A stretch of 64,000 bases of DNA from the NCBI RefSeq assembly GCF_031846245.1, contig NZ_JAVRIC010000016.1:1-64000 (forward strand), given 5' to 3'. Source of the DNA: Banduia mediterranea (GTDB taxonomy: Bacteria; Pseudomonadota; Gammaproteobacteria; Nevskiales; Nevskiaceae). The first letter of the stretch is position 1. Each line of letters begins with the position of its first letter. A program made the translations under genes and the position numbers. Positions 49,589-62,651 of this stretch are shown here, in pieces. Under the pieces are notes generated by a model. That model was not told the origin of the DNA, did not search any database, and saw only the letters and a list, made by a program, of their open reading frames with translations.

Positions 49589-50563
49589 CTAGTTCGGCCT
49601 TTGTTGCGTCAGCCAGGGCAGTTGATCCAGATCGACGTTGCCGCCGCTGAGAATCACACCGACGCGGCGGCCGGCGAAGTGCTCGCGGTGCCGCAGAATC
49701 GCGGCCAGCGCGACCGCGGACGAAGGTTCGATCACCAGCTTCAGGCGTGACCAGGCGAGCTTCATTGCCGCGATGATCTCGTGTTCGTCCACGCACAGCA
49801 CGGCTGCGAGCCCGCCGCGCAGGATCTCGAAGTTGCGTACGCCGACCGTGGTACGCAGCCCGTCGGCGATCGTGGCGGGCAGCTGCTCGGTGACGCGCAC
49901 ACCGCTGCTGAGCGAACGCCAGGTGTCGTCGGCGCCCCTGGGCTCGGCCGCGTAGACCAGCGGTGTCGGTGAGCCGATGCCGGCGGCAAGTACGGTTCCG
50001 GCCGCCAGGCCGCCGCCGCCGACGGGCGCGACCAGGCATTCGAGCCCTGGAACGTCCTGCATCAATTCAAGTGCAGCCGTGCCTTGGCCGGCGATGACCC
50101 GCGCATCATCGAACGGTGGAATTGGAACGGCGCCGGTCTGCGCCAGTACCAGCGCCAGGCCTGCTTCGCGCGCGTGCTGGTTGGCCGCGCAGCGATGAAT
50201 CGTGGCGCCGTTCGCGGCGATGTTGTCGAGCTTGCTGCGCACCGCGCCTTCCGGCACCACCGCATGACAGGCGATGCCACGGGAGCGCGCGGCCAGCGCC
50301 AGGGCGGCGCCATGATTGCCCGAAGAATGGGTCGCCACGCCGGCGGATGCCTCGGTCTCGCTCAGGGACCACACCGCATTCATCGCGCCGCGCAACTTGA
50401 ACGCGCCACCGTACTGCAGGTTCTCGCACTTGAAGTGCAGGCGCGCGCCGCTCCGTTCGTCGAGATGGACATCGTCGAGCACCGGTGTGCGTCGCACGCG
50501 ATTCTCGATGCGCCGCGCCGCGTCGAGCACATCTTTTGCGGCAGGAATGTCCAGTGGGTTCAC
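49589..50563 (-). CDS. Threonine/serine dehydratase family PLP enzyme
   Basis: This 324-residue fold-type II PLP enzyme has GAFKLRGAMNAVW with the Schiff-base lysine, THSSGNHGAALALAA, and the glycine-rich loop VAPVGGGGLAAG. It lacks the C-terminal ACT domain of biosynthetic IlvA, so it is more like catabolic threonine dehydratase, serine racemase or threo-3-hydroxyaspartate ammonia-lyase. The GTG at 50563 overlaps the pyrC stop (GTGA). Confidence 0.86.
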   Translation of the reverse strand: MNPLDIPAAKDVLDAARRIENRVRRTPVLDDVHLDERSGARLHFKCENLQYGGAFKLRGAMNAVWSLSETEASAGVATHSSGNHGAALALAARSRGIACHAVVPEGAVRSKLDNIAANGATIHRCAANQHAREAGLALVLAQTGAVPIPPFDDARVIAGQGTAALELMQDVPGLECLVAPVGGGGLAAGTVLAAGIGSPTPLVYAAEPRGADDTWRSLSSGVRVTEQLPATIADGLRTTVGVRNFEILRGGLAAVLCVDEHEIIAAMKLAWSRLKLVIEPSSAVALAAILRHREHFAGRRVGVILSGGNVDLDQLPWLTQQRPN

Positions 50564-51894
50564 TGCCTGAAATGCAGACGTTGTCCGCGAGCCTGCGTTG
50601 CGAGCTGATTCAGATGATAAGCGGCCTCGCCGTTGACCCAGGTGGTGACGACGCGATGCGAGAACGCCTGGCCTTCCAGCGGCGACCAGCCACACTTGTA
50701 ATAGAGCTTGTCGACCTCGACGTGCGTCTGCACCTCAGGATCGACCAAGACCAGGTCGGCGTACTGGCCTTCGGCGATATGACCGCGATCGATCACGCCG
50801 TAACGTGCCGCCGGCGCATGGCTCATGCGTTCGACCGCTGTGGGCAGATCGAGCACCCCCTGCTTGACGAGTTCCAGCACGATCAGCACCGCATGCTGAA
50901 CCAGCGGCAAGCCGGCCGGCGCCGCGAAATACTTGCGCGCTTTTTCGTCGGCAGTATGCGGCGCGTGATCGGTGGCAATGATGTTGAGCCGGCCGTCGGC
51001 CACAGCTTCACGCAACGCCGCGCGGTCCGCGGCGGTCTTGACGGCCGGATTGCACTTGAGCTGCGCGCCGAGCGCATCGTAGGCCTCATCCGAAAACCAC
51101 AGATGGTGCACACAGGCCTCGCCGGTGATCTGCTTGCCGGCGACCGGGCCCGGTTCGAAGAATTCCAGCTCGCGCGCCGTGGTCATGTGCAGCACATGCA
51201 GCTTGCTGCCGTATTGGCGCGCCAGACCGACCGCGAGTTCGGTGGACTTGTAGCAGGCCTCGGCCGAGCGGATCAGGGGGTGCGCGGAAAACGGCACATC
51301 ATCGCCATAACGTTCGCGATACACCTGCTCCTGCGCCAGGATCATCGGCGTGTCCTCGCAATGGGTGGCGATCAGATAGGGGCACTGCGAGAAAATCGAG
51401 GCGAGGATCCTGGGATTGTCGACCAGCATGTTGCCGGTGGAGGCGCCCATGAACACCTTGACGCCGCAGGCCTCACCCGGCTGCAGGCGCAGCAGCTCTT
51501 CGAGGTTGTCGTTGGCGGCGCCGAAATAGAATGCGTAGTTGGCATGCGCGCGTCCGGCCGCCAGGTCGTACTTGGCGGCGAGCGCTTCGCGCGTGGTCGC
51601 GGGCGGCTTGGTGTTCGGCATCTCCATGAAGCTGGTGATACCCCCGGCGACCGCGGCGCTCGATTCGGTGGCGAGGTCGCCCTTGTGCGTCAGTCCCGGT
51701 TCGCGGAAATGGACCTGATCATCGATCATCCCCGGCAGCAGCCATTTTCCGCGCGCATCCACCACCTTGGCGCCGTCCGGCGCCGACAGGCCGCTGCCGA
51801 CCTTCTCGATGCGTTCACCGGAAATCAGTACATCGCCGTGGCTGGCGCGGCCGTCGCTGACGACGAGGGCGTTGCTGATCAGAATCTGGGACAT
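50560..51894 (-). CDS. pyrC: Dihydroorotase, catalytic type
   Basis: This 444-residue dihydroorotase closes carbamoyl aspartate to dihydroorotate. The metal motif reads MIDDQVHFREPGLTHKG: the first of the usual two histidines is Gln60 while His62 is present, as in the DQVHFREPG subgroup. KVFMGASTGNML, ATHCED and ATDHAPHT are intact. It contrasts with the inactive paralogue at 25959-27242 and is probably the working enzyme. It is co-transcribed with the dehydratase. Confidence 0.9.
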   Translation of the reverse strand: MSQILISNALVVSDGRASHGDVLISGERIEKVGSGLSAPDGAKVVDARGKWLLPGMIDDQVHFREPGLTHKGDLATESSAAVAGGITSFMEMPNTKPPATTREALAAKYDLAAGRAHANYAFYFGAANDNLEELLRLQPGEACGVKVFMGASTGNMLVDNPRILASIFSQCPYLIATHCEDTPMILAQEQVYRERYGDDVPFSAHPLIRSAEACYKSTELAVGLARQYGSKLHVLHMTTARELEFFEPGPVAGKQITGEACVHHLWFSDEAYDALGAQLKCNPAVKTAADRAALREAVADGRLNIIATDHAPHTADEKARKYFAAPAGLPLVQHAVLIVLELVKQGVLDLPTAVERMSHAPAARYGVIDRGHIAEGQYADLVLVDPEVQTHVEVDKLYYKCGWSPLEGQAFSHRVVTTWVNGEAAYHLNQLATQARGQRLHFRQ

Positions 51895-51987
51895 GGACTC
51901 GAGCTCGGAGGGCGGGCTGGTGAGGCAGTTTAGTACGGACTGGGTGAATCATGGCCGCACGGTGGCGCGCAAAAGCCGGCCCTGCGC

Positions 51988-52710
51988 TCAGAGATCACCG
52001 AATCGGGCCTGCAATACGGCGATGGCAGTCAGCGCGGCGGTTTCGGTTCGCAGCACGCGTGGACCGAGTTTCAGCCGGTCGAATCCAGCCTGGGCGGCGA
52101 GCGCCACTTCCTTGTCGGACAAGCCGCCTTCCGGACCGATCAGCAACTCCGCCGATGGCGGCTCGCCGACGAATGAGTCCAGTGTCCGTTCGGCCGTGGG
52201 GTCCAGCACCAGAGCCAAAGGCCGCCGGGGCCGGCTCAGCCAGTCGCGCAGCGGCATGACGCCGTCCAGCTCGGGCAGCCGTGCCCGCCCGGACTGTTCG
52301 CAGGCCGAAATGACGACGCCGCGCCAGTGATCCAGCTTCCTGTCCCAGCGCTCGGCATCGAGCTTGACGTTGCAGCGCTCCGTGATCACCGGCGCGATGC
52401 GCGCGACCCCCAGTTCCACGGCTTTCTGGATCGCCCAGTCCATGCGTTCGCCCTTGGACACGCCCTGCACCAGCGTGAGACTGAGCCTGGATTCGTTGCT
52501 GCGCGGAATCGATTCCAGGATTTCGGCCTGCGCCGCGCGTTTGGTAACCTTGCCGAGTCGCGCCAGATAGTCTTGACCGTCTCCGTTGAACAGGGTCAGC
52601 GGATCCGCTTCGCGCAGGCGCAGTACCTGCACTGCGTGGCGGAAGGCGGGCGCGGGCAGGTCCACGCGCACGCCGGAGGCTAGCGGTATGTCGGCGAAGA
52701 ATCGGGTCAT
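51988..52710 (-). CDS. rsmE: 16S rRNA (uracil-1498-N3)-methyltransferase
   Basis: This 240-residue SPOUT methyltransferase shows FRHAVQVLRLREADPLTLF, then GVSKGERMDWAIQKAVELGV, ERCNVK, ISACEQSGRARLPE, and the SAM-binding LIGPEGGLSDKE with LGPRVLRTETAALTAI. It methylates U1498 of 16S rRNA. It is the last chromosomal-type gene before the defence island; the 188 bp between it and jetD hold no supported gene. Confidence 0.95.
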   Translation of the reverse strand: MTRFFADIPLASGVRVDLPAPAFRHAVQVLRLREADPLTLFNGDGQDYLARLGKVTKRAAQAEILESIPRSNESRLSLTLVQGVSKGERMDWAIQKAVELGVARIAPVITERCNVKLDAERWDRKLDHWRGVVISACEQSGRARLPELDGVMPLRDWLSRPRRPLALVLDPTAERTLDSFVGEPPSAELLIGPEGGLSDKEVALAAQAGFDRLKLGPRVLRTETAALTAIAVLQARFGDL

Positions 52711-52898
52711 ACACGTATTGTGCCGATTGGCCGGTCGCGCCGTCAGTCTGGCTCAGCGGCTTACCTGAAGTCACCACGCAAGCGCAGGACCGGATGGCGA
52801 AACCGCAAACGCGGGAGGCGCAGCGCGTTAAGGATTGGCACTATTGGTTGGCACAGGGATACGAGTTCGGATGAAATCAAGTCCGATGCGGTCCAGCG

Positions 52899-54134
52899 TC
52901 AAGCCAAGGCCAGATCGTCGATCAGCGTCTCGACCACCGTCTCCTCGTCGAGCGCGTAGCCGCAGTCCAGCATCGCTAGACTCAGTCGGACATCCCAGTC
53001 GGCGGTGACCGCGGGCCCTTCCAGCGTTCGGCCCTGTCGCGGTGCGTATTGCCGGTAGTCCGGCGCGCCGAATCGCCACGGCACGGCGCCGAAGCGGCGC
53101 ATCACGAAGTTGCCGATGCGCAGGCCGGCCCAATCGAAATCGCCGTGGTAGCGCAGGCGCGCGCCGGTGCGGGCAAGCTGGTCGAGCAGCGTGCGCTGGG
53201 CGGCGGCTGGCATGCCGTCGGTGCAGACCATGGGCGGACAGCGTTCGCCCAGGCGTTCGGCGGCGAGCGCGACGATGGTCGGGTTTTCACAGACGTGGAT
53301 GGACACATTGTCGACGCACCAGTTCGGTGGTTGACGCAGCAGCGTGCGCAGCGTCAGGTGCAGCGGTTCGCCGGATTCGCCGGCCAGGGCTGCGAGGCGG
53401 CCGCCGGGAGTGTCCGTATGCGCCGGCAGGTTGAGCGCCAGGGCCGGCGCGGACAGTTCGCCGAGGCTGACGCCGAGTTGCGCCCAGCGGTTGCGCAGCC
53501 GCGTTTCTTCGGAATCCACGGGCGTGTCGCTGTCGTTGGCGCAGGCGGCCAGCACCAGGCTGCCGAGCGCTCGCCCGGCGTCCAGGCCGTGGGCGTCGCC
53601 ACAGGTATCGGCCGCAAGCCGGGGTAGCGGGATGCCGCCGCCCGGCAGCCGCTGCAGCACGCAGGCCGCTTGCGACAGCAGTTGTGCCGCCTGTTGCGGA
53701 TCCGAACCCGACAGCCGTTTGAGCAGTCCCTGGCCGGCGCCGTTCGTCAGCAGGGTCTGCAGGCGGACATCGGTTGCCGTCGCAAAACACGCGGTCCATT
53801 CGCGGTCACGCGCCAGCCGCTCCCGCTTGCGGCGCGGGATCGGCCCATCCAGCGCTTCGAGCGCACTTTCCAGGTTGGGTGCGACCTCGGCGCGCGCCAG
53901 CGCGGCATCGAGTTCGGTCTGCGAGACGCGCATGGAATCGCCACGCGCGGCGCGGCGGCCGAGCAGGCCTTCGAGCGCTGCGCGTTCGGCGGGCGTCAGG
54001 CGCGCGAGCGTGAACGCATCCGCGTCGGCTTCGCGCGCATAGCGTTCGCGCAGCCGTTGCCGCAAGGCGGCGAGGGCTTTGCCGCCGAGCAGCCGTTGCA
54101 GGCGCTGCGCGTCGATGGCGCCGCCGGCGTTCAT
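52899..54134 (-). CDS. jetD: Wadjet subunit JetD (DUF2399, Toprim nuclease)
   Basis: This 411-residue protein belongs to the TIGR02679/DUF2399 family found in the four-gene Wadjet variant. The Toprim acidic residues are visible: Glu283 in HVCENPTIVALAAE, and Asp332/Asp334 in RYHGDFDWAGLRIGNF. In Wadjet, JetD cleaves plasmid DNA after the JetABC motor has extruded it. An N-terminal arm (DUF3323-like) precedes the Toprim. It overlaps jetC by 4 nt. Confidence 0.9.
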   Translation of the reverse strand: MNAGGAIDAQRLQRLLGGKALAALRQRLRERYAREADADAFTLARLTPAERAALEGLLGRRAARGDSMRVSQTELDAALARAEVAPNLESALEALDGPIPRRKRERLARDREWTACFATATDVRLQTLLTNGAGQGLLKRLSGSDPQQAAQLLSQAACVLQRLPGGGIPLPRLAADTCGDAHGLDAGRALGSLVLAACANDSDTPVDSEETRLRNRWAQLGVSLGELSAPALALNLPAHTDTPGGRLAALAGESGEPLHLTLRTLLRQPPNWCVDNVSIHVCENPTIVALAAERLGERCPPMVCTDGMPAAAQRTLLDQLARTGARLRYHGDFDWAGLRIGNFVMRRFGAVPWRFGAPDYRQYAPRQGRTLEGPAVTADWDVRLSLAMLDCGYALDEETVVETLIDDLALA

Positions 54135-57100
54135 GATTCCGCGAGGCCGGCGTCGGCCGGAAAGCGCCGCCCCGGATCATCCTGCGCGCGGCGCACGCGG
54201 CCGTCCCAGCTCCAGCGCGAGACGAAGATCGCGTCGATGCCTTCGCGGCGCACGATCTGGCAGATCGACAGGCCGGGAAGTTCGGCGTAGCAGCCCCATT
54301 CGCGTTCGCTGGTCATGACGAAGTCGAGGTCGAATTCGCGGATCAGCGCCATGCAGTTGGCGCGCGCCTCGTCGTCGATGCCGGCGAAGGCCTCGTCGAG
54401 CAGCACCAGACGCGGCGCCAGCGGATCGGCGCTTTCGTAGTGGCTGCTGGCGGCCGCGAACAAGGGCACGGTCAAACCCAGCGCGCGCTCGCCGCTGGAA
54501 GCCGGGCCGGACAACGGTTTCCAGCTGCCGTCCTGCTGGCGCTGCACGCGGAAGCGGTGCCAGCGGCGGTAGTCCAGCGCGCGCGACAGCGATTCGAACA
54601 GGCTGGCGCGTTCGTCGCGCTGGCGTTCCTCGCGGATGCGCGTTTGCAGGAAGTCGCCGACGGTGCGGCGGTCGTCCTGCGACCAGGCGTCGGCGTGGGT
54701 CTTGAGCAGGCGCTTGCGCGCTTCGGCCAGGCCGGAGGGTGCGTCCGGGGTGTCGTCCGGCAGGTTCTGCCAGTCCAGGCGGTAGCGCACGCCGGTGGAG
54801 GTCGGGCGTTTGTGCAGTTCGGCATTGATGCTGGCGACGCGGCGTTCGGTGTCCTGGATCAGGCGTTGCAGGTTGACCGCGATGTCCTGCTGCAGGTGGT
54901 TTTCGAGCACTTCGCGTTCACGCGCCGACAGCAGCATGCGGCGCTCGCCGATTTCGGCTTCCAGCCGCGCGCCGAGCAGGTCCGGCCGCTCCGGCCGCGA
55001 CTGGTAGACGATGCGCACGATCAGGCCGTGGTCGCTGGATTCCAGCGTGGCGCTGTGGCCTTGTGCCGACAGCGCGCGCTGCAGTTCGGTGAAGTCCTCG
55101 CCGATGCGCCGCGAGATCGCGTGCCAGTGCTCGTCCTCGGCGGCGACCTGGCTGAGCGCCTGTTCGGTGCGCCGCGCCGCCGTCAGGCCGGCTTCGACGC
55201 CCCAGCTTTGCGCGGCGTCCGGCAGTTCGAGTTCGGGCACGGCGATCGCGAGCAGGCCGGTGGCGGCGAATCGGCGCAGGCCGTCGATGGCGGCGAGGCG
55301 TTCGTCGCCGCGCTCGTCGAGCGTGCGCTGCGCGTCGCTGCGTTTCTGCTCGGCCGCGGCGGCCTGCGCGTTGGCCGTGAGCTGGGCCTTGTGGGCGGCG
55401 CCGAGCCCCTCGTTTTCGCGGGTTTCGGCGGATTCGGCATCGGCGATGCGCCGCTGTAGTTCGTGGACCTTGACGCCGACGCTGTCGCGCAGGGTCTGTA
55501 ATTCGGTCGCGGTTTCGAGCTGGCGCCGCGTCTGTTCGCCGCTTTCGCGTTCGGCGGTGGCGAGGTCGCTGCGACTGCGCGCCTCGCGGCTCTGCTGTTC
55601 CTGCCATTCCAGCAGCGCGCCGCGGTGGGCGCGCAGCGCCGCGGCGAATTCGGTGACGGCCAGGCGGTAGTCCGACAGGGTTTGCGCCAGTGATTCCAGC
55701 GCGGCGCTGTCGGCCGGCAGGCGCAGGTCCTCGGCGTCCAGGCGCAATGCGTCGAGGCTGCGCTGGCTGGCGTGCTCGGCCTGGGCGAGACGGCCGTCGG
55801 CTTCGCCGAGGCGGCGCTGGGCGTCACGGCGCTGGCGCTCGGCCTGTGAGGCCGTGGCGTGTGCCGTGCGCAGGGCGTCGTCGCCCGGTGCGGCGGCCAG
55901 TTCCTGACGCAGGCGCTGCCGTGTGTCGGCGAGCGCCGCGCTCTGGGCGTCGAGCGTCTGAGCCTGCGCGCCGAGTTCGGTCAGGCGCGCGCCGATTTCG
56001 TCCAGGCGCTGACGGCGTGCGGCTTCGCGCGCGGCGTAGCCGATGTGGCGCGCCGCCGGTTTGGACCAATGGCCGGCGAGCGGGCCGAGGCGGTAGCTGC
56101 CGGCGGTCGAGACCCAGGCTTCGGCGTCGCCGGGGTCCTGCGCATCGCAGGCGATGGCCGCCAGGATCGATTCGATGATCGCGGGCGCGATCGGCGTGTC
56201 CGCGGCCGGCCGCAGGCGGCTCGCCAGCGAATCCGCCTGCGTGCCGCGCGGCAGCAGGCGTGCGTCCAGGCTGCCCGGATCCAGCACCTCGCCGCCCGGC
56301 GTGACCCAGGCGTCGAGCAGGCCGGCCGCTTCGAGCGCGGCTTCCAGGCCGGCGCGCTGTGCCGGTTCCAGGCCGGGATCGAAGTCCACGAGCTGCCACA
56401 GCGGCGCGCCGCTGAGCCGGTCGCGTGTCGCGGCGTCGCGGTAGTACAGCGCGGGCGGTGGCGCGTCGGTGCCGGCTTCCAGCGCTTCACGTTCCTGATG
56501 CAGGACTGCGCGCTCCTCGGCAAGCGCCTGCCGGTGCTGTTCGAGCGCGGCTTCGCTGGCGGCGAGCTGCCGTTGCTGTGCGTCGCGGGCCTGGTCGAGC
56601 AGGGCGCGCATCGGCTGCTCGCCGGCCAGGGTTTCGGCCCAGGTTTCGAGCGCGGCCAGCGCGTCCTCGCTGTCCGGCAGGCGCAGCGTGTGCAGACCGC
56701 CGAGGTAATGGCGCCAGGCAGCCAGCAGCGCGTCGATATCGGTCTGCAGCTGCCGCGCCGCCGCTTCGTGCTGGGCTTCGGCGGCGGCGAAGTCGTCGGC
56801 GCGGGCATTGCGTTCGCTGTGCGCCAGCTCGCGTTTGCGCAGGGCGTCCTGGTGCTCGCGCAGACGCTTGCGGACCAGCTCGATCTGTTCGAGTCGGGCC
56901 TTCGCGGCGGCGTGCAGGCGGCCGCGCAGCGTGTCGGCGAAGCGTTCGTCGGTGCCCACGACGCCATCGGGCAGTTCGACGGATTCGAGCGCGCGATCCT
57001 GTTCGGTTTCGAGCGCCAGTGGGGTGGCCAGGGCGGTGGCGGTGTGCAGGGTCTCGATCTGCACGCGCCGCGTCGCCTCGGCGACCGCGTGGCGTCGCGC

Positions 57101-58246
57101 GCTGGTGGCCTGTTCCTCCTGCAGGCGGCGCTGCGCAGTGTGCAGGCGCTGCTGCGCCCGATCGAGGCTTTGCCGGGCCTGCGCGGCTTCGGTTTCGGCG
57201 CTTTGCAGGCGCTGCGCGTCACGCATCACCGGGTCGGCGCGCAAGACCTTGAGCCGCGCCCGCGCTTCGTTGAGCACGCGTTCGTGCCGGGTGATCGCCT
57301 CGCGCGCCGCGCTCTCGGCCTGTTGCGCGGCGCTGCGTTCGCTGTCGGCGGCGTTGAGTTCGCGGCTGGCCTGGTCGTAGCGCGTTTGCGAGGCGCGCAG
57401 TTCGGCGGCGCGGCGGCGCGCGGCGATCTGCGCGTAGCGGCCGTAACGCTCGGCGAAGCCGCTGACGGCTTTGCGCATGGCGTCGAGTTCGTCGAGTTCG
57501 CGGCGGTAGTCGTCGAGCTGGTTCATCGCCTCGGCCACGTCTTCGAGCGCGCCGCGCTCCAGCGGCGGCAGGGCGTCACTGAGCGCGTCGGACAAACGCT
57601 GCTCGTTGGGCTGCTTCGACAGCTGCGGCTGGCGCAACTGGATCAAGGTGTCGATCAGCGCGTCGTAGCGTTCGCTGCCCAGGCGGAACAAGGCCTCGTC
57701 GACCGCGCGCCGGTAGTGCATGGCGGTGTCGAAGACCTGGCCGTGCGTGCCGATGGCCTCGGCCAGACGGTCCTTGGCGATGGCGGTGCGGTTGGGTGTA
57801 GTCAGCCACAGATCCTCGCCGACGCGTTGCGAGGAGGTGAAGTACCAGGCGTCGACCGAGGCCCGGCCACCGACCGCGCGCAGGCCGGCGCCCAGGGTCA
57901 GGAAGCGTGGCTGGCCGTCCTCGCCGACGCGGCCGAATTCGATCCAGGTATAGCCGATGCGGCGCTCGTGACGGCCGCCCATCAGCAGGTTCCAGTCCAT
58001 GCGCTTGCCGCGGTCGCCGTCCGGCTCGACGCGTGAGGCCGAGAGGTTGGCGTCGAACAGGAACGGCAGCGTCAGCGACAGCACCTTGGATTTGCCGGTG
58101 CCGTTGTTGCCGCGCAGCATGATGTGGCCGTCGCGGAAATGGAATTCCTCGGCGTCGTAGTGGTAGAGCTCGATCAGGCCCAGGCGCAGCGGTTGCCAGC
58201 GGCGCAGCGCCGGTTCGGGCAGGGGTGGACGTTCGGGGGCGTTCAT
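54131..58246 (-). CDS. jetC: Wadjet subunit JetC (SMC-like ATPase, TIGR02680)
   Basis: This 1371-residue SMC-type ATPase has the Walker A GNNGTGKS at residues 46-53, long Ala/Arg/Glu-rich coiled coils (about 290-1130) around a hinge region near 570-680, the signature SSGERALGL at about 1250, and Walker B RLVLLDEAFAGIDD with Asp1284/Glu1285. It is the loop-extruding motor of Wadjet. The ATG at 58246 lies 4 bp after the PIN-toxin stop, so its expression must now follow the toxin-antitoxin genes. Confidence 0.93.
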   Translation of the reverse strand: MNAPERPPLPEPALRRWQPLRLGLIELYHYDAEEFHFRDGHIMLRGNNGTGKSKVLSLTLPFLFDANLSASRVEPDGDRGKRMDWNLLMGGRHERRIGYTWIEFGRVGEDGQPRFLTLGAGLRAVGGRASVDAWYFTSSQRVGEDLWLTTPNRTAIAKDRLAEAIGTHGQVFDTAMHYRRAVDEALFRLGSERYDALIDTLIQLRQPQLSKQPNEQRLSDALSDALPPLERGALEDVAEAMNQLDDYRRELDELDAMRKAVSGFAERYGRYAQIAARRRAAELRASQTRYDQASRELNAADSERSAAQQAESAAREAITRHERVLNEARARLKVLRADPVMRDAQRLQSAETEAAQARQSLDRAQQRLHTAQRRLQEEQATSARRHAVAEATRRVQIETLHTATALATPLALETEQDRALESVELPDGVVGTDERFADTLRGRLHAAAKARLEQIELVRKRLREHQDALRKRELAHSERNARADDFAAAEAQHEAAARQLQTDIDALLAAWRHYLGGLHTLRLPDSEDALAALETWAETLAGEQPMRALLDQARDAQQRQLAASEAALEQHRQALAEERAVLHQEREALEAGTDAPPPALYYRDAATRDRLSGAPLWQLVDFDPGLEPAQRAGLEAALEAAGLLDAWVTPGGEVLDPGSLDARLLPRGTQADSLASRLRPAADTPIAPAIIESILAAIACDAQDPGDAEAWVSTAGSYRLGPLAGHWSKPAARHIGYAAREAARRQRLDEIGARLTELGAQAQTLDAQSAALADTRQRLRQELAAAPGDDALRTAHATASQAERQRRDAQRRLGEADGRLAQAEHASQRSLDALRLDAEDLRLPADSAALESLAQTLSDYRLAVTEFAAALRAHRGALLEWQEQQSREARSRSDLATAERESGEQTRRQLETATELQTLRDSVGVKVHELQRRIADAESAETRENEGLGAAHKAQLTANAQAAAAEQKRSDAQRTLDERGDERLAAIDGLRRFAATGLLAIAVPELELPDAAQSWGVEAGLTAARRTEQALSQVAAEDEHWHAISRRIGEDFTELQRALSAQGHSATLESSDHGLIVRIVYQSRPERPDLLGARLEAEIGERRMLLSAREREVLENHLQQDIAVNLQRLIQDTERRVASINAELHKRPTSTGVRYRLDWQNLPDDTPDAPSGLAEARKRLLKTHADAWSQDDRRTVGDFLQTRIREERQRDERASLFESLSRALDYRRWHRFRVQRQQDGSWKPLSGPASSGERALGLTVPLFAAASSHYESADPLAPRLVLLDEAFAGIDDEARANCMALIREFDLDFVMTSEREWGCYAELPGLSICQIVRREGIDAIFVSRWSWDGRVRRAQDDPGRRFPADAGLAES

Positions 58247-58250
58247 CGGT

Positions 58251-58664
58251 TCAGACTTGGACGACTGCAAGCCCCAGCCCTCTGGCGGCCACGCATTGCC
58301 GCAGGTCCGAAGAGACGAAGGTATCCGCCCGGCTGCGCAGTGCGGCCGCCACGTGCAAGGCATCCATGGCGCGCAGCGGATGCGCCTCGAGTGTGCGAAT
58401 GCTGTCCCCCAGAACTTCCGGAGCCAGCTCGCAGATCTGTGCGTCGGCGATGTCCAGCAGCAGGTCCTGTTTCAAGCGCCGATATTGCCCTGTGTCGAGG
58501 CGGCCCTCCCGCTGCAGCCGGCAGAACGCCGAGATCAGCTCCGGCAAAGCGATCGCGCAAAGCAGCAGCACGTCGGCGCGCTCGCACCAGTCGAGGACGG
58601 CATCGCTGCCGTCCTCGCGCACGTAACGCTTGACGAAGGCGGAGCTGTCGAAAAAAACGCGCAT
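58251..58664 (-). CDS. vapC: PIN-domain toxin, VapC-like
   Basis: This 137-residue PIN ribonuclease has the four acidic residues of the fold: Asp6 (MRVFFDSSAFVKRY), Glu42 (LPELISAF), Asp101 (AMDALHVAAAL) and Asp120 (FVSSDLRQC). VapC toxins cleave tRNA or rRNA. Its ATG shares one base with the antitoxin stop (TGATG). It sits between jetB and jetC. Confidence 0.9.
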   Translation of the reverse strand: MRVFFDSSAFVKRYVREDGSDAVLDWCERADVLLLCAIALPELISAFCRLQREGRLDTGQYRRLKQDLLLDIADAQICELAPEVLGDSIRTLEAHPLRAMDALHVAAALRSRADTFVSSDLRQCVAARGLGLAVVQV

Positions 58665-58894
58665 CAGGGACCGCGGTCTTGCAGGATCAGTCGCCCGGCC
58701 TCGATGCCGGGGATCAACAGAGGATCGGCGCGCCGACGCTTCCAGGACGGGATTTCCGCCGCCGGCTCGGCGATCGGCTGAATCTCCGCGACCGCACGGC
58801 CATTGCGCAGCACGCGCACGGTTTCTCCGGCCTCCACCAGATCGAAATAGCGTTTTGCATGACTGCGCAATTCGGTGAATGTGGTTTCCAGCAT
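58664..58894 (-). CDS. Phd/YefM-family antitoxin
   Basis: This 76-residue protein has the Phd/YefM N-terminal DNA-binding region: TTFTELRSHAKRYFDLVEAGETVRVLRNGRAVAEIQP. The short, basic C-terminal tail should bind the toxin. It is coupled to the PIN toxin by TGATG. Pairing of a Phd-type antitoxin with a PIN toxin is common. The operator at 58909-58928 lies 15 bp upstream of its ATG. Confidence 0.88.
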   Translation of the reverse strand: MLETTFTELRSHAKRYFDLVEAGETVRVLRNGRAVAEIQPIAEPAAEIPSWKRRRADPLLIPGIEAGRLILQDRGP

Positions 58895-58908
58895 GAGGAT
58901 CTCTCGAT

Positions 58909-58928
58909 ATGTACATCGATCTGTACAT
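58909..58928 (-). promoter_or_regulatory. Probable YefM/Phd operator: twin TGTACA sites
   Basis: A perfect inverted repeat ATGTACA, 6 nt, TGTACAT lies 15 bp upstream of the antitoxin start. Each arm contains TGTACA, itself a palindrome and the known core of the E. coli yefM-yoeB operator. The 12-nt centre-to-centre spacing suits two dimers. This is most likely the autoregulatory site of the Phd-PIN module, and by read-through of jetC-jetD. Confidence 0.7.
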
Positions 58929-59022
58929 TCTAGCAGCCTGAAAGCGAAAGGATGTCGGCCGACCCGGCTCTGAAGCGGTACATGTGCAAGGCGGAGCCTG
59001 CGGGTCTGTTCGTGATCAGCGT

Positions 59023-59280
59023 TCACCGAAAGACCTCCCGACGATGGCCGACCTTGATGAGCTCCACGACAATTGCTGCATCGTCGATGGAGTAGAGAAT
59101 TCGATAGTCGCCCTGGCGGGTACGGTATTTTTCGGCCCCCGACAGCTTCTGACTGCCGGCAGGGCAGGGATCATCGCGCAGGGATTCGATCCGGTTCAGG
59201 ATGCGGTGCAGGTCGGCCTTCGGCAGGCCGTGAAAATCCTTGGGGACGGCCTGCCTGAATCTCAGTTCATAGATCGCCAC
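59023..59280 (-). CDS. relE: RelE/ParE-family toxin
   Basis: This 85-residue RelE-superfamily toxin is preceded by an overlapping antitoxin. It shows LRFRQAVPKDFHGLPKADLH, DPCPAGSQKLSGAEKYRTRQGDYRILYSI and a terminal VGHRREVFR with basic catalytic-type residues. The start is a GTG at 59280, inside the antitoxin's 3' end. The gene is intact even though its antitoxin is frameshifted. Confidence 0.87.
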   Translation of the reverse strand: MAIYELRFRQAVPKDFHGLPKADLHRILNRIESLRDDPCPAGSQKLSGAEKYRTRQGDYRILYSIDDAAIVVELIKVGHRREVFR

Positions 59281-59523
59281 TGGCCTTGAGCTTGTTCAGC
59301 AGTTCTTCGTAGCTGATGGTGGGCTCTGTGGCGCGTTCGTCGAACGCGGCAAGATCCTGCTGGTCTTCGCTCAGGGACTGCGCACGGCATCCGACACCAG
59401 TTCGGAGATCGAGAGCCGCGTTTCAGCCGCTTTCAGGCGTAGCGCGCGGTGCAATGCGGGGTCGAGGTAGATCGTGGCGCGGGTATTGGCAGCAGCGCTG
59501 GCGCGTTCGAGTTTCGCGGTCAT
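59267..59523 (-). pseudogene. Ribbon-helix-helix antitoxin with a single-base frameshift
   Basis: From the ATG at 59523 the frame encodes MTAKLERASAAANTRAT, then IYLDPALHRALRLKAAE and LSISELVSDAVRSP before TGA at 59371. This is an intact RHH DNA-binding domain. Adding one base near 59383 would join a second frame: QSLSEDQQDLAAFDERA, then EPTISYEELLNKLKASGDL, ending at 59267 inside relE. That second part is the expected toxin-binding tail. As written, the antitoxin lacks it. The apparent loss is one C of a CC pair. Confidence 0.8.
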
Positions 59524-59532
59524 TCGGCACCA

Positions 59533-59548
59533 TGACGTTTTGACGTTT
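59533..59548 (-). repeat. Tandem octamer, possible RHH operator
   Basis: TGACGTTT occurs twice in immediate tandem (59533-59540, 59541-59548), 9 bp upstream of the RHH antitoxin start and inside the 61-bp gap after jetB. RHH repressors of the CopG/ParD type often bind such direct or inverted repeats. The surrounding stretch is more A/T-rich than the neighbouring genes. Confidence 0.5.
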
Positions 59549-59584
59549 TTTTCACTTTAATCAGGTATCGCCTGAATCGTTTGA

Positions 59585-60814
59585 TCACAACAGCGTTTGT
59601 TGCTTGCCCCGAACCTCCGCCTCGCCCAGCGCGAAGCGCAGCAGTGCCGGCCGCGCGCGTACGCCGCCGCTGCGGAATTCCACCAGCTTGAGCCGGGCGA
59701 GGCGCTGCAGGGCCTGATCCGCGAGCGCATTTTCGGCGCCGGGTTCGCGTGCGGCCTTGCGCCAGTAGCGACCGAATTCGCCGGCGGCGTCGGCCACGTG
59801 GTCGGCGACCTCGCGCGCGCCGAACAGGCGCTGCGGATGTTTGCGCGCGGCATCGCCGAGGAACTCGGCGACCAGCAGGGTGACGTGGGATTCGGTGCCC
59901 TGCGCCGGCAGGCGCTCGTCGGAGAGTTCGCCGTCCTCGTCCACCAGGGCGAAGCCCTCGGCGCGCAATTCCGCCGTGAGGCCGCTGGCGGCGGCGAGGC
60001 GCGCGCTCATCGTGCCGCGCTGGGTCGCTAGATATTCGCGTTCGCTGTCGTCGAGTTCGTCGTGATAGACCACCGGGTCGTCGAGCAGGCGTCTGGACAG
60101 GCGATGACGCGTGGCGGTGCGGCGGCCTTCGGGGCTGTCGGGCACGTAGTCCTCGACCAGGGCGGCAAGGCGTGATTCGAAGTCGGCCTGCGGCAGCAGG
60201 GCTTCGATCAGGCTGGCGCCGCGGCTGCTGCCCGGCATCGCGGCGAGCGCGCGGCGCTGCACGTCATAGAGCACGTCGCCGGCCTGGTTGACATAGGCCT
60301 CCTCGTCGCCGGCGACGCGGGCGAGTACGCCGAGGTCGAGCAGGAAACGGCAGACCAGCACCAGATCGCGGCGCTCGCGCAGATTTTCCAGCGTGTACTG
60401 GTAGCCGAGCGCCGCGAGCTCGGGATCGCGTGCAGCGTCGAGCAGGCGCTCGCCCAGTGCGCGCAGGGTGATCTGCGGCTCGGCGCGTTCGAGCACGGCG
60501 CAGACCAGGCACAGCAGCACGTAGCGGTCGCGATCGAACTCGCGCTTGTCGCGGTCGTGCGCGCCGCGGGTGCTGTCGCCGAGCTCGGCCGGGCGTTTGT
60601 AGAGCCGTGCGCAGTCGCGTTCGATCAGCAGCGGCCAGCCGCATTCGCGGCCGAACCAGTCGCGCAGCCAGTCGGCGTGCGCGCGCACATCGACGAATTC
60701 CGGTGCGTCGGCCGGCAGCAGCGGGCGCATCAGCAGCGCGCGCAAGGCACGTTCGCGCGATTCGTCCTGTTGGCGGTCGAGAACGTCGGAGAGTCTGGAG
60801 CGCGCTTCGGGCAT
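59585..60814 (-). CDS. jetB: Wadjet subunit JetB (DUF2398, TIGR02678)
   Basis: This 409-residue protein is of the DUF2398 family, the MukE-like winged-helix kleisin partner in this Wadjet type. Conserved features include ALRALLMRPLLPAD, WLRDWFGRECGWPLLIERDCARLYKRP and DRERDRYVLLCLV-like central segments (here KREFDRDRYVLLCLVCAVLE). Its start shares one base with the jetA stop. Normally jetC would follow directly; here two toxin-antitoxin modules intervene. Confidence 0.88.
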   Translation of the reverse strand: MPEARSRLSDVLDRQQDESRERALRALLMRPLLPADAPEFVDVRAHADWLRDWFGRECGWPLLIERDCARLYKRPAELGDSTRGAHDRDKREFDRDRYVLLCLVCAVLERAEPQITLRALGERLLDAARDPELAALGYQYTLENLRERRDLVLVCRFLLDLGVLARVAGDEEAYVNQAGDVLYDVQRRALAAMPGSSRGASLIEALLPQADFESRLAALVEDYVPDSPEGRRTATRHRLSRRLLDDPVVYHDELDDSEREYLATQRGTMSARLAAASGLTAELRAEGFALVDEDGELSDERLPAQGTESHVTLLVAEFLGDAARKHPQRLFGAREVADHVADAAGEFGRYWRKAAREPGAENALADQALQRLARLKLVEFRSGGVRARPALLRFALGEAEVRGKQQTLL

Positions 60815-62316
60815 CAGACGATCGGGCGGATCAGCAGGCGGTGGTCGCGGCCGCGGAAGTGGCCGAGTTCGGTGTCGATTTCGGCGCGGCTGTTGGCCTC
60901 CAGCGGCTCCAGGCGAATCGTCAGCGAGCCGTCGCTGGTGCTGCGTTCGACTGCCTGGTCGGGGTGGCGCTGCGCCGCCAATGCGTCGCCGAGCAGCGAC
61001 AGGAACAGGCGGAAGGCGTGGCGGTCCAGCGTGCCGAGTTCGGACAGGCGCGTTTCCCGGCCGGTGGCAAGGCGTTGCCGCGCGGCTTCGGTCTGCGCCG
61101 ATTCCTCGGCCAGACGATGCGCAAGCTGCGCGCGTTCGGCGCTGCGTTCGCGGATTTTGGGTGGGCCGCCACGCGTGGCGAGCTGGCCGGTCTCGCGCAG
61201 GCGCGGGTGGATTCTGACCGGCGGCGCCTCGCCCCAGGGACTCGTCGCCGCAGCGGTTTCGGCGGGGCTCAGTGCGAGATGCCGTGCCGGCGACAGCGCG
61301 AAGGCGGCGCGCCACAGACGGTGTGTCTGTGCCGGCTCCGGGCAGGCGGCGAACCACAGTGCCAGCCGCCGGAAATCGGCCGCGCGATCACTGCGGCCGG
61401 CGCGGCGTTCGTTGAGCGTGGTCACCGCCTGCAACAGGCGCGGGATCGCGGCACGCGCGCTGGCGCGCAGCAGCTCGGCCTGCGGTTTGTCGCGGCCGTC
61501 GGCGACAAACCAGCGACTCAGTCCGCGCCAGCGTTCGCGCCAGACCGCGAGGCGTGGCGCGTAGGCCTCGGATTCGGCCAGGGCGTCACCCGGCGCGGCG
61601 TCGCCGGCCTCGCGTTCGGCGGCGAGCGCCAGCAGGGCTTCGGCCCGCGGTTGCAGTTCGCGCAGGCGCTGGGCGATGCGTCCGGACTTGGTCACCAGTT
61701 CACCGATGAAGCGTTCGAGGTAGTCGATCAGCCGTTTCTTGAAGGCCATCACCGCGTCCTGCTCGGCACGCTGCAATTCGATGGTGCGCGCCAGCCCGGT
61801 CATGAAGGCTTCGGCATTGTCGGCGAGGCTGCCGAACACATGCACCAGGTCGCGCAGGATTTCGTGGACCTTGGCGGCGTCCGGCGCATCCGCCTGCGCC
61901 AGTACCGCAAGACTGTTGAGCCGCGCGAGGATGTCGTCCAGTGCCACCGACTGCAGTTCGCCATGGCGCGACAGGGTTTCGGCGAAGGTGGCGAGCCCGG
62001 CCTCCACCGCCTCGCCGCCACGCGTCAGCCGGTACAGCAGGCGCTTGCGGTAGAAGTCCTCGATGGTGGCGACGCGCGCGGTGTCCGGCTGCGCTTCGAG
62101 GTTGCCCCAGTCCACGAGCTGCGCGAGCAGGCCGTCGAGCTCCTCGGCCGCCGGCATGCGCTCGCGCCAGCGCGTTTCATGCAGGATTTCGTCGCTGCGC
62201 AAATGCAGCCGGAACTGCCGGCGCGCGGCGGCGAAGCAGTCCATGATCGCGCGGTAGGCGTCGGCGCGTTCGGCGCTGACGTGGCGGAACAGGCGGGCGG
62301 ATTCGGTCTGGCTCAT
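60814..62316 (-). CDS. jetA: Wadjet subunit JetA (DUF2397, TIGR02677)
   Basis: This 500-residue DUF2397 protein is the kleisin-like subunit, mostly helical. Recognisable parts are FRHVSAERADAYRAIMDCF near the start, LDGLLAQLVDWGNLEA, and VATIEDFYRKRLLYRLTRGGEAVE. The ATG at 62316 overlaps the stop of a small upstream frame (ATGA). It is the first Wadjet gene in transcription order. Confidence 0.88.
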   Translation of the reverse strand: MSQTESARLFRHVSAERADAYRAIMDCFAAARRQFRLHLRSDEILHETRWRERMPAAEELDGLLAQLVDWGNLEAQPDTARVATIEDFYRKRLLYRLTRGGEAVEAGLATFAETLSRHGELQSVALDDILARLNSLAVLAQADAPDAAKVHEILRDLVHVFGSLADNAEAFMTGLARTIELQRAEQDAVMAFKKRLIDYLERFIGELVTKSGRIAQRLRELQPRAEALLALAAEREAGDAAPGDALAESEAYAPRLAVWRERWRGLSRWFVADGRDKPQAELLRASARAAIPRLLQAVTTLNERRAGRSDRAADFRRLALWFAACPEPAQTHRLWRAAFALSPARHLALSPAETAAATSPWGEAPPVRIHPRLRETGQLATRGGPPKIRERSAERAQLAHRLAEESAQTEAARQRLATGRETRLSELGTLDRHAFRLFLSLLGDALAAQRHPDQAVERSTSDGSLTIRLEPLEANSRAEIDTELGHFRGRDHRLLIRPIV

Positions 62317-62420
62317 GCGCTGGGGATGCGGTCGCGATAAATTTCATCGCGAAACCGTTCCCAGTCGGCATTGGTGAATTCCGGCGCGAAGCCGGTGTCG
62401 CGGAATGTCGGAAATACCAT
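62313..62420 (-). CDS. Possible small protein, coupled to jetA
   Basis: A 35-residue frame starting ATG at 62420 (MVFPTFRDTGFAPEFTNADW, then RDEIYRDRIPSA) ends with a TGA that overlaps the jetA ATG by 4 nt. The frame is open further upstream to 62624, but that part is Arg/Pro-rich and unconvincing. It could be a leader gene coupled to jetA or the tail of a decayed gene. I do not recognise it. The 230 bp from 62421 to 62651 hold nothing else that I can support. Confidence 0.35.
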   Translation of the reverse strand: MVFPTFRDTGFAPEFTNADWERFRDEIYRDRIPSA

Positions 62421-62651
62421 TCGTGCCGCAACCCGCGCCGCCCCCGCGCGTCCGGCCGGGCGAATCCGTTGCTTGATGCGTGCGAGCCACGCTTTTGGCG
62501 ATCGTGTCGAAGTCATTCCCGTATTCGTCGGCCGGCTTGCAGAGGGCGGCCTGGTTGCGGGGCTTACCTTATTCGCCGACGTTGGGTCGTTCAAGCGCTC
62601 AGTCCGCCGTCGCCAGTCGAGCACGCCAGTGCCGGAGTCTCGAGCATGGCG

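Follow-up and report, generated by a model that had tools for sequence, protein, structure and literature searches.

A relBE-type cassette with a frameshifted antitoxin gene in a type II Wadjet operon of Banduia mediterranea

A type II Wadjet operon in Banduia mediterranea carries a relBE-type toxin-antitoxin cassette between its jetB and jetC genes; the operon lies within a window of 64,000 nucleotides (the whole stretch of DNA analysed; positions 1 to 64,000 of contig NZ_JAVRIC010000016.1). As the initial annotation had claimed, the antitoxin is one base out of frame relative to its relatives and loses its toxin-binding tail, and both points were confirmed in the assembled sequence; the range given for this event, 59267-59523, is exactly the entire antitoxin gene. 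The toxin gene, said to read through cleanly, was indeed open for 85 codons. The reading that we favour, with modest confidence, is that the module was recently acquired and is in early decay, the same frameshift probably lowering the synthesis of the toxin. Nothing points to a new mechanism, and none is required.

The split antitoxin gene and its relatives

The features of the cassette are as follows.

59023..59280, minus strand: relE-type toxin, 85 aa, with a GTG start inside the antitoxin gene (Pfam ParE_toxin, E 2.2e-8, above cut-off)
59267..59383, minus strand: C-terminal toxin-binding half of the antitoxin, in the -1 frame (A1 profile 41-77, E 6.2e-13)
59371..59523, minus strand: N-terminal ORF of the antitoxin, 50 aa, most of the ribbon-helix-helix (RHH) domain (ATG 59523, stop TGA 59373-59371; A1 profile 4-41, E 1.2e-14)
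59534..59547, minus strand: putative operator, two AACGTC half-sites, spaced by a step of 8 nt and lying 11 to 24 nt ahead of the antitoxin ATG

The antitoxin was analysed with a profile of 15 intact antitoxin relatives (A1, 77 positions). At E <= 10, only two matches were obtained in the organism's own genome, which were the two antitoxin halves themselves, and they join at model position 41 of 77, indicating that the split gene is not a chance product. Read in the -1 frame, the C half has no stop codon at the junction, and around 59383 it continues as a family-typical antitoxin tail. Its stop (TGA 59269-59267) falls within relE, and the relE start (GTG 59280) lies within the antitoxin gene, giving an overlap of 14 nt. 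Of the overlapping antitoxin gene expected directly upstream of the toxin in a type II RelBE-like module, the DNA-binding and toxin-binding parts are both there and conserved, though the assembly puts them in two frames.

All the invariant antitoxin residues are kept, 9/9 in the N half (start Met excluded) and 10/10 in the C half, and no sign of decay other than the frameshift was observed in this gene. Such conservation on both sides implies that the break is either very recent or not real, and it suits a very recent mutation and a sequencing error equally.

It had been proposed in the initial annotation that the DNA-binding half (50 residues) was kept. This is true for most of the RHH domain, but not for the end of its second helix. 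The alignments of three solved RHH-type proteins to the A1 profile extend to positions 44, 46 and 50, whereas the 50-aa product tracks the family only as far as position 40-41, so that the second-helix end is missing from the DNA-binding half. When searched against Pfam, the N part alone matched six RHH-type families, every one below its cut-off, and the C part alone matched no family.

For comparison, the region upstream of the toxin was read in 22 of the 30 toxin-match rows, 21 of them besides the window; the rows omitted were duplicates (L039 and L040, of L010 and L012) or weak matches (L030, L031, L032, L033, L037 and L038). A whole antitoxin frame overlapping the toxin start was found in 20 of the 21 other loci, comprising the 15 RHH rows of A1, L024 (RHH-like by eye), L025, L026, L028 and L029. 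In L021, the toxin match is partial and no antitoxin frame was found upstream. None of the 20 loci with an antitoxin frame has a one-base split. Antitoxin and toxin overlap by 14 nt in 14 of these 15 RHH rows, and in the last, L041, the overlap depends on the chosen start. The window antitoxin shares with its A1 relatives the RHH N-part, the conserved C-tail, the 14-nt toxin overlap and the tandem operator-like half-sites, and differs from them in the one-base frameshift of the assembly.

Two further observations were made among the relatives. In L025, L026, L028 and L029, the antitoxin beside the toxin relative differs in its N-terminal part but has, by eye, a similar-looking C-tail, which suggests that the DNA-binding half may have been exchanged. 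At L022:1501-1734, a decay of the reverse kind was observed, in which the RHH antitoxin is whole and the toxin stops after 20 codons.

The toxin: fold and conserved residues

The toxin has the RelE/ParE fold, as indicated by the ParE_toxin match above cut-off and by RelE structures as the top Foldseek matches. The structure was predicted with a mean pLDDT of 78.6 (below 50 at residues 83-85), and the predicted fold was closest to the solved RelE toxins of E. coli, M. tuberculosis, P. horikoshii and T. thermophilus, with TM-scores by query of 0.64-0.80 for 2khe, 3g5o, 1wmi and 4fxe. In the NCBIfam search the toxin scored 21.5 bits against RelE_StbE, compared with a cut-off of 27.9, so it is not filed under TIGR02385. 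In an alignment of 22 toxins (A2, which omits the broken toxin of L022 and takes in L031), L34, R53, R55, G57, R60 and R80 were invariant. The four arginines among them are shared with the solved RelE toxins; the differences from those toxins are Phe84, the RelE_StbE score below cut-off, and the fact that the Pfam family matched above cut-off is ParE_toxin.

Column 84 of this alignment is Tyr in 20 of the 22 toxins, Phe in the window toxin and His in L021. By profile alignment, Phe84 corresponds to Y87 of E. coli RelE, so that of the equivalents of R61, R81 and Y87 both arginines are kept and the tyrosine is replaced by phenylalanine. According to the passages of PMC2807027 drawn on here, Y87F of E. 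coli RelE caused no significant reduction of cleavage in vitro, Y87A, R61A and R81A reduced it, and combining R81A with Y87F left almost no activity. Inactivating changes in relE had been named in the initial annotation as something to look for: the conserved arginines give no such change, and reading Phe84 as a clear inactivating change is unsupported by the E. coli Y87F data in those passages. Phe84 is thus a deviation and no proof of inactivity.

Relaxed constraint on the toxin was also considered. At 34 conserved columns (set of 15), the window toxin deviates at 6, more than its nearest relatives L010-L012 (1, 2 and 5), but this is inside the range of 0 to 14 over the set, so the comparison does not demonstrate it. 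The start codon is GTG, compared with ATG in 13 of the 15 RHH-type rows; L018 also has GTG, and the start of L041 is unclear. A toxin search of plasmids gave 21 matching records, every one below 60% identity. Three named records encode a relative of the toxin; all three are MAGs, from Nevskia (two) and Myxococcota (one).

Wadjet operon context and expression of the cassette

The cassette adjoins a phd-vapC pair, and both lie within the Wadjet operon.

52899..54134, minus strand: jetD (DUF2399; PADLOC JetD2, E 4.1e-131)
54131..58246, minus strand: jetC (TIGR02680; PADLOC JetC2, E 0)
58251..58903, minus strand: phd-vapC (PIN) pair (PhdYeFM_antitox and PIN above cut-off; the proteins are 88% and 98% identical to those of L057)
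58929..59584, minus strand: window-specific stretch with the relBE cassette (blastn against L057; 656 window bases against 50 other bases in G001)
59585..60760, minus strand: jetB of type II Wadjet (DUF2398; PADLOC JetB2, E 5.8e-133)
60814..62316, minus strand: jetA (DUF2397; PADLOC JetA2, E 3.7e-189)

A genome of the same genus (G001) carries jetA, jetB, jetC, jetD and phd-vapC at 88-98% protein identity. The blastn alignments to G001 stop at window position 58928 and restart at 59585, with flanks about 95% identical, and no match to relE was found in the G001 genome at E <= 0.001. DUF2397 (jetA) was present in 12 of the 100 genomes searched, the organism's own included. By tblastn with the window's own proteins (E <= 1e-3), relBE was found between jetB and jetC in none of the stretches drawn from the 11 other operon genomes, and phd-vapC was found there only in G001. 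Three of the operon genomes (G015, G026 and G045) also encode a relE relative, which lies elsewhere than the operon. The simplest reading of these comparisons would be that the cassette was gained recently in the lineage of the window, although it may instead have been lost in G001. It was also observed that 58251-59584 holds two toxin-antitoxin pairs between jetB and jetC, and that the other 10 relatives have neither there. Separately, jetC and jetD of G001 are set apart by about 1.6 kb of additional DNA (L057:662-2296).

Upstream of the antitoxin, pairs of RYGYY half-sites at exactly 8 nt were found in 14 of 16 loci, window included, with a motif that was picked after inspection of the sequences. 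At each of the other spacings from 5 to 12, such pairs were found in 0 or 1 of the 16 loci, and about 3% of random 70-mers from the same sequences have an 8-nt half-site pair. L022 and L041 have no pair at 8 nt. The half-sites with the 8-nt step are probably the operator of this antitoxin family. Because the window has a good copy of them, the promoter side of the cassette looks intact.

The position of the relE start inside the antitoxin gene, which was missed in the initial annotation, has a bearing on expression. Ribosomes translating the intact gene terminate shortly after the relE start; in the window, the N-terminal ORF stops at 59371, which is 90 nt before that start. Coupled translation of antitoxin and toxin is reported for kis-kid in the portion of PMC3920265 used here, and translational regulation of E. 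coli RelBE in that of PMC5535158. In the latter portion the term 'translational coupling' occurs only in the references, so the argument for coupling rests on PMC3920265 and on the gene overlap.

Taken in sequence, the events of the favoured reading would be the following. A type II relBE-like module, with an RHH antitoxin and a RelE-fold toxin, would have been acquired horizontally, probably recently, into the Wadjet operon between jetB and jetC. In its intact state, ribosomes would reach the relE start and terminate there, since that start sits within the last antitoxin codons. The one-base frameshift, which is seen in the assembly, removes the toxin-binding tail of the antitoxin, and with ribosomes stopping 90 nt earlier the translation of relE would probably drop. 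The truncated RHH protein may still weakly repress the promoter via the operator-like sites that are kept, and the GTG start and Phe84 may further weaken the toxin. The cell would then tolerate the module because little active toxin is made. The paradox raised in the initial annotation, that a cell should not tolerate free RelE, becomes weaker, since the frameshift probably cuts toxin synthesis too.

Alternative explanations of the frameshift

The main rival to early decay is a sequencing or assembly error, in which case the organism itself would have an unbroken antitoxin, and the module would be a normal, functioning relBE-type pair. We regard this as a serious possibility, if a less probable one than early decay. 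All 19 of the 19 non-Met invariant residues are kept across the two frames, and an antitoxin free of decay apart from the frameshift is the expected look of a sequencing error; the operator-like sites are kept, the toxin is open, and a whole antitoxin frame is the rule elsewhere (20 of the 21 other loci). The assembly is moreover a 3.83-Mb draft of 97 contigs.

Several observations speak against an error. The completeness of the assembly is 99.66% and its contamination 0.12%, and the longest single-base run around the break is only three. In the comparison with G001, which covers window positions 49589-62426 and 12,185 aligned columns, no gene was thrown out of frame in its interior. The indels observed were an intergenic cluster at 52880-52894, 12 bases within jetC (56240), a compensating pair of one-base indels in the first jetD codons (54106 and 54110) and a 2-base gap in the last jetC codons (54155); the gaps at the jetD start and the jetC end are both at alignment ends, where G001 carries extra DNA. 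The genome has 12 other ParE/RelE-type loci, 8 of which were inspected, and an open antitoxin-like frame was seen by eye alongside the toxin in 6 of these 8 (L005 and L007 were unclear). The alignment to G001 and these other loci argue against a generally error-prone assembly, as far as such comparisons can indicate, and leave room for a single error.

Three further alternatives were considered. In one of them the antitoxin would work in two pieces, a 50-aa RHH repressor and a separate 35-aa neutralising peptide from the C half. The C frame contains no ATG, GTG or TTG start, which speaks against the ordinary re-initiation suggested in the initial annotation. A near-cognate CTG (59374-59372) overlaps the stop TGA (59373-59371), so that ribosomes ending translation at the TGA could resume at the CTG and produce the C-half peptide, and the entry for 2kc8, in the part consulted, describes E. 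coli RelE solved with a C-terminal RelB peptide alone bound. We consider such a two-piece antitoxin very unlikely.

Programmed -1 frameshifting, which would rejoin the two halves, is less likely still. In its favour, both halves are conserved and the -1 frame of the C half runs uninterrupted through the junction, but neither an XXXYYYZ heptamer nor a relaxed one (at least 4 of 6 re-pairing positions) was found in the N frame ahead of the stop, and the 20 other loci with an antitoxin carry it in a single frame. Of the options offered in the initial annotation, programmed frameshifting was therefore rejected, as was re-initiation from an ordinary start codon, since neither signal (heptamer or start codon) was found.

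Equally little weight can be given to a live toxin neutralised by a different antitoxin in the cell: the 12 further ParE/RelE-type toxin loci, with antitoxin-like frames beside the toxin in most of those inspected, could supply one, but the A1 profile had no further match at E <= 10, which indicates that the other antitoxins of the genome are unlike the window antitoxin by sequence, and a second homologous antitoxin, one form of the other antitoxin that the initial annotation had listed as an option, was thus rejected within the sensitivity of the search.

Returning to early decay, the cassette resembles other decayed toxin-antitoxin loci in that one partner is broken and the other open, L022 being the opposite case. 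It differs from them in that the antitoxin is the broken partner and the invariant columns are fully conserved on both sides of the break. Should the frameshift be a sequencing error, there is nothing unusual about the module, and in either case toxin-antitoxin cassettes are placed within a Wadjet operon. If the frameshift is real, this would be a natural case in which the antitoxin broke ahead of its toxin and the break is tolerated because toxin synthesis depends, through the overlap of the genes, on translation of the antitoxin. Loss of the antitoxin frame would then turn the toxin down too, and the locus would allow a simple test of what makes the loss of overlapping toxin-antitoxin genes safe.
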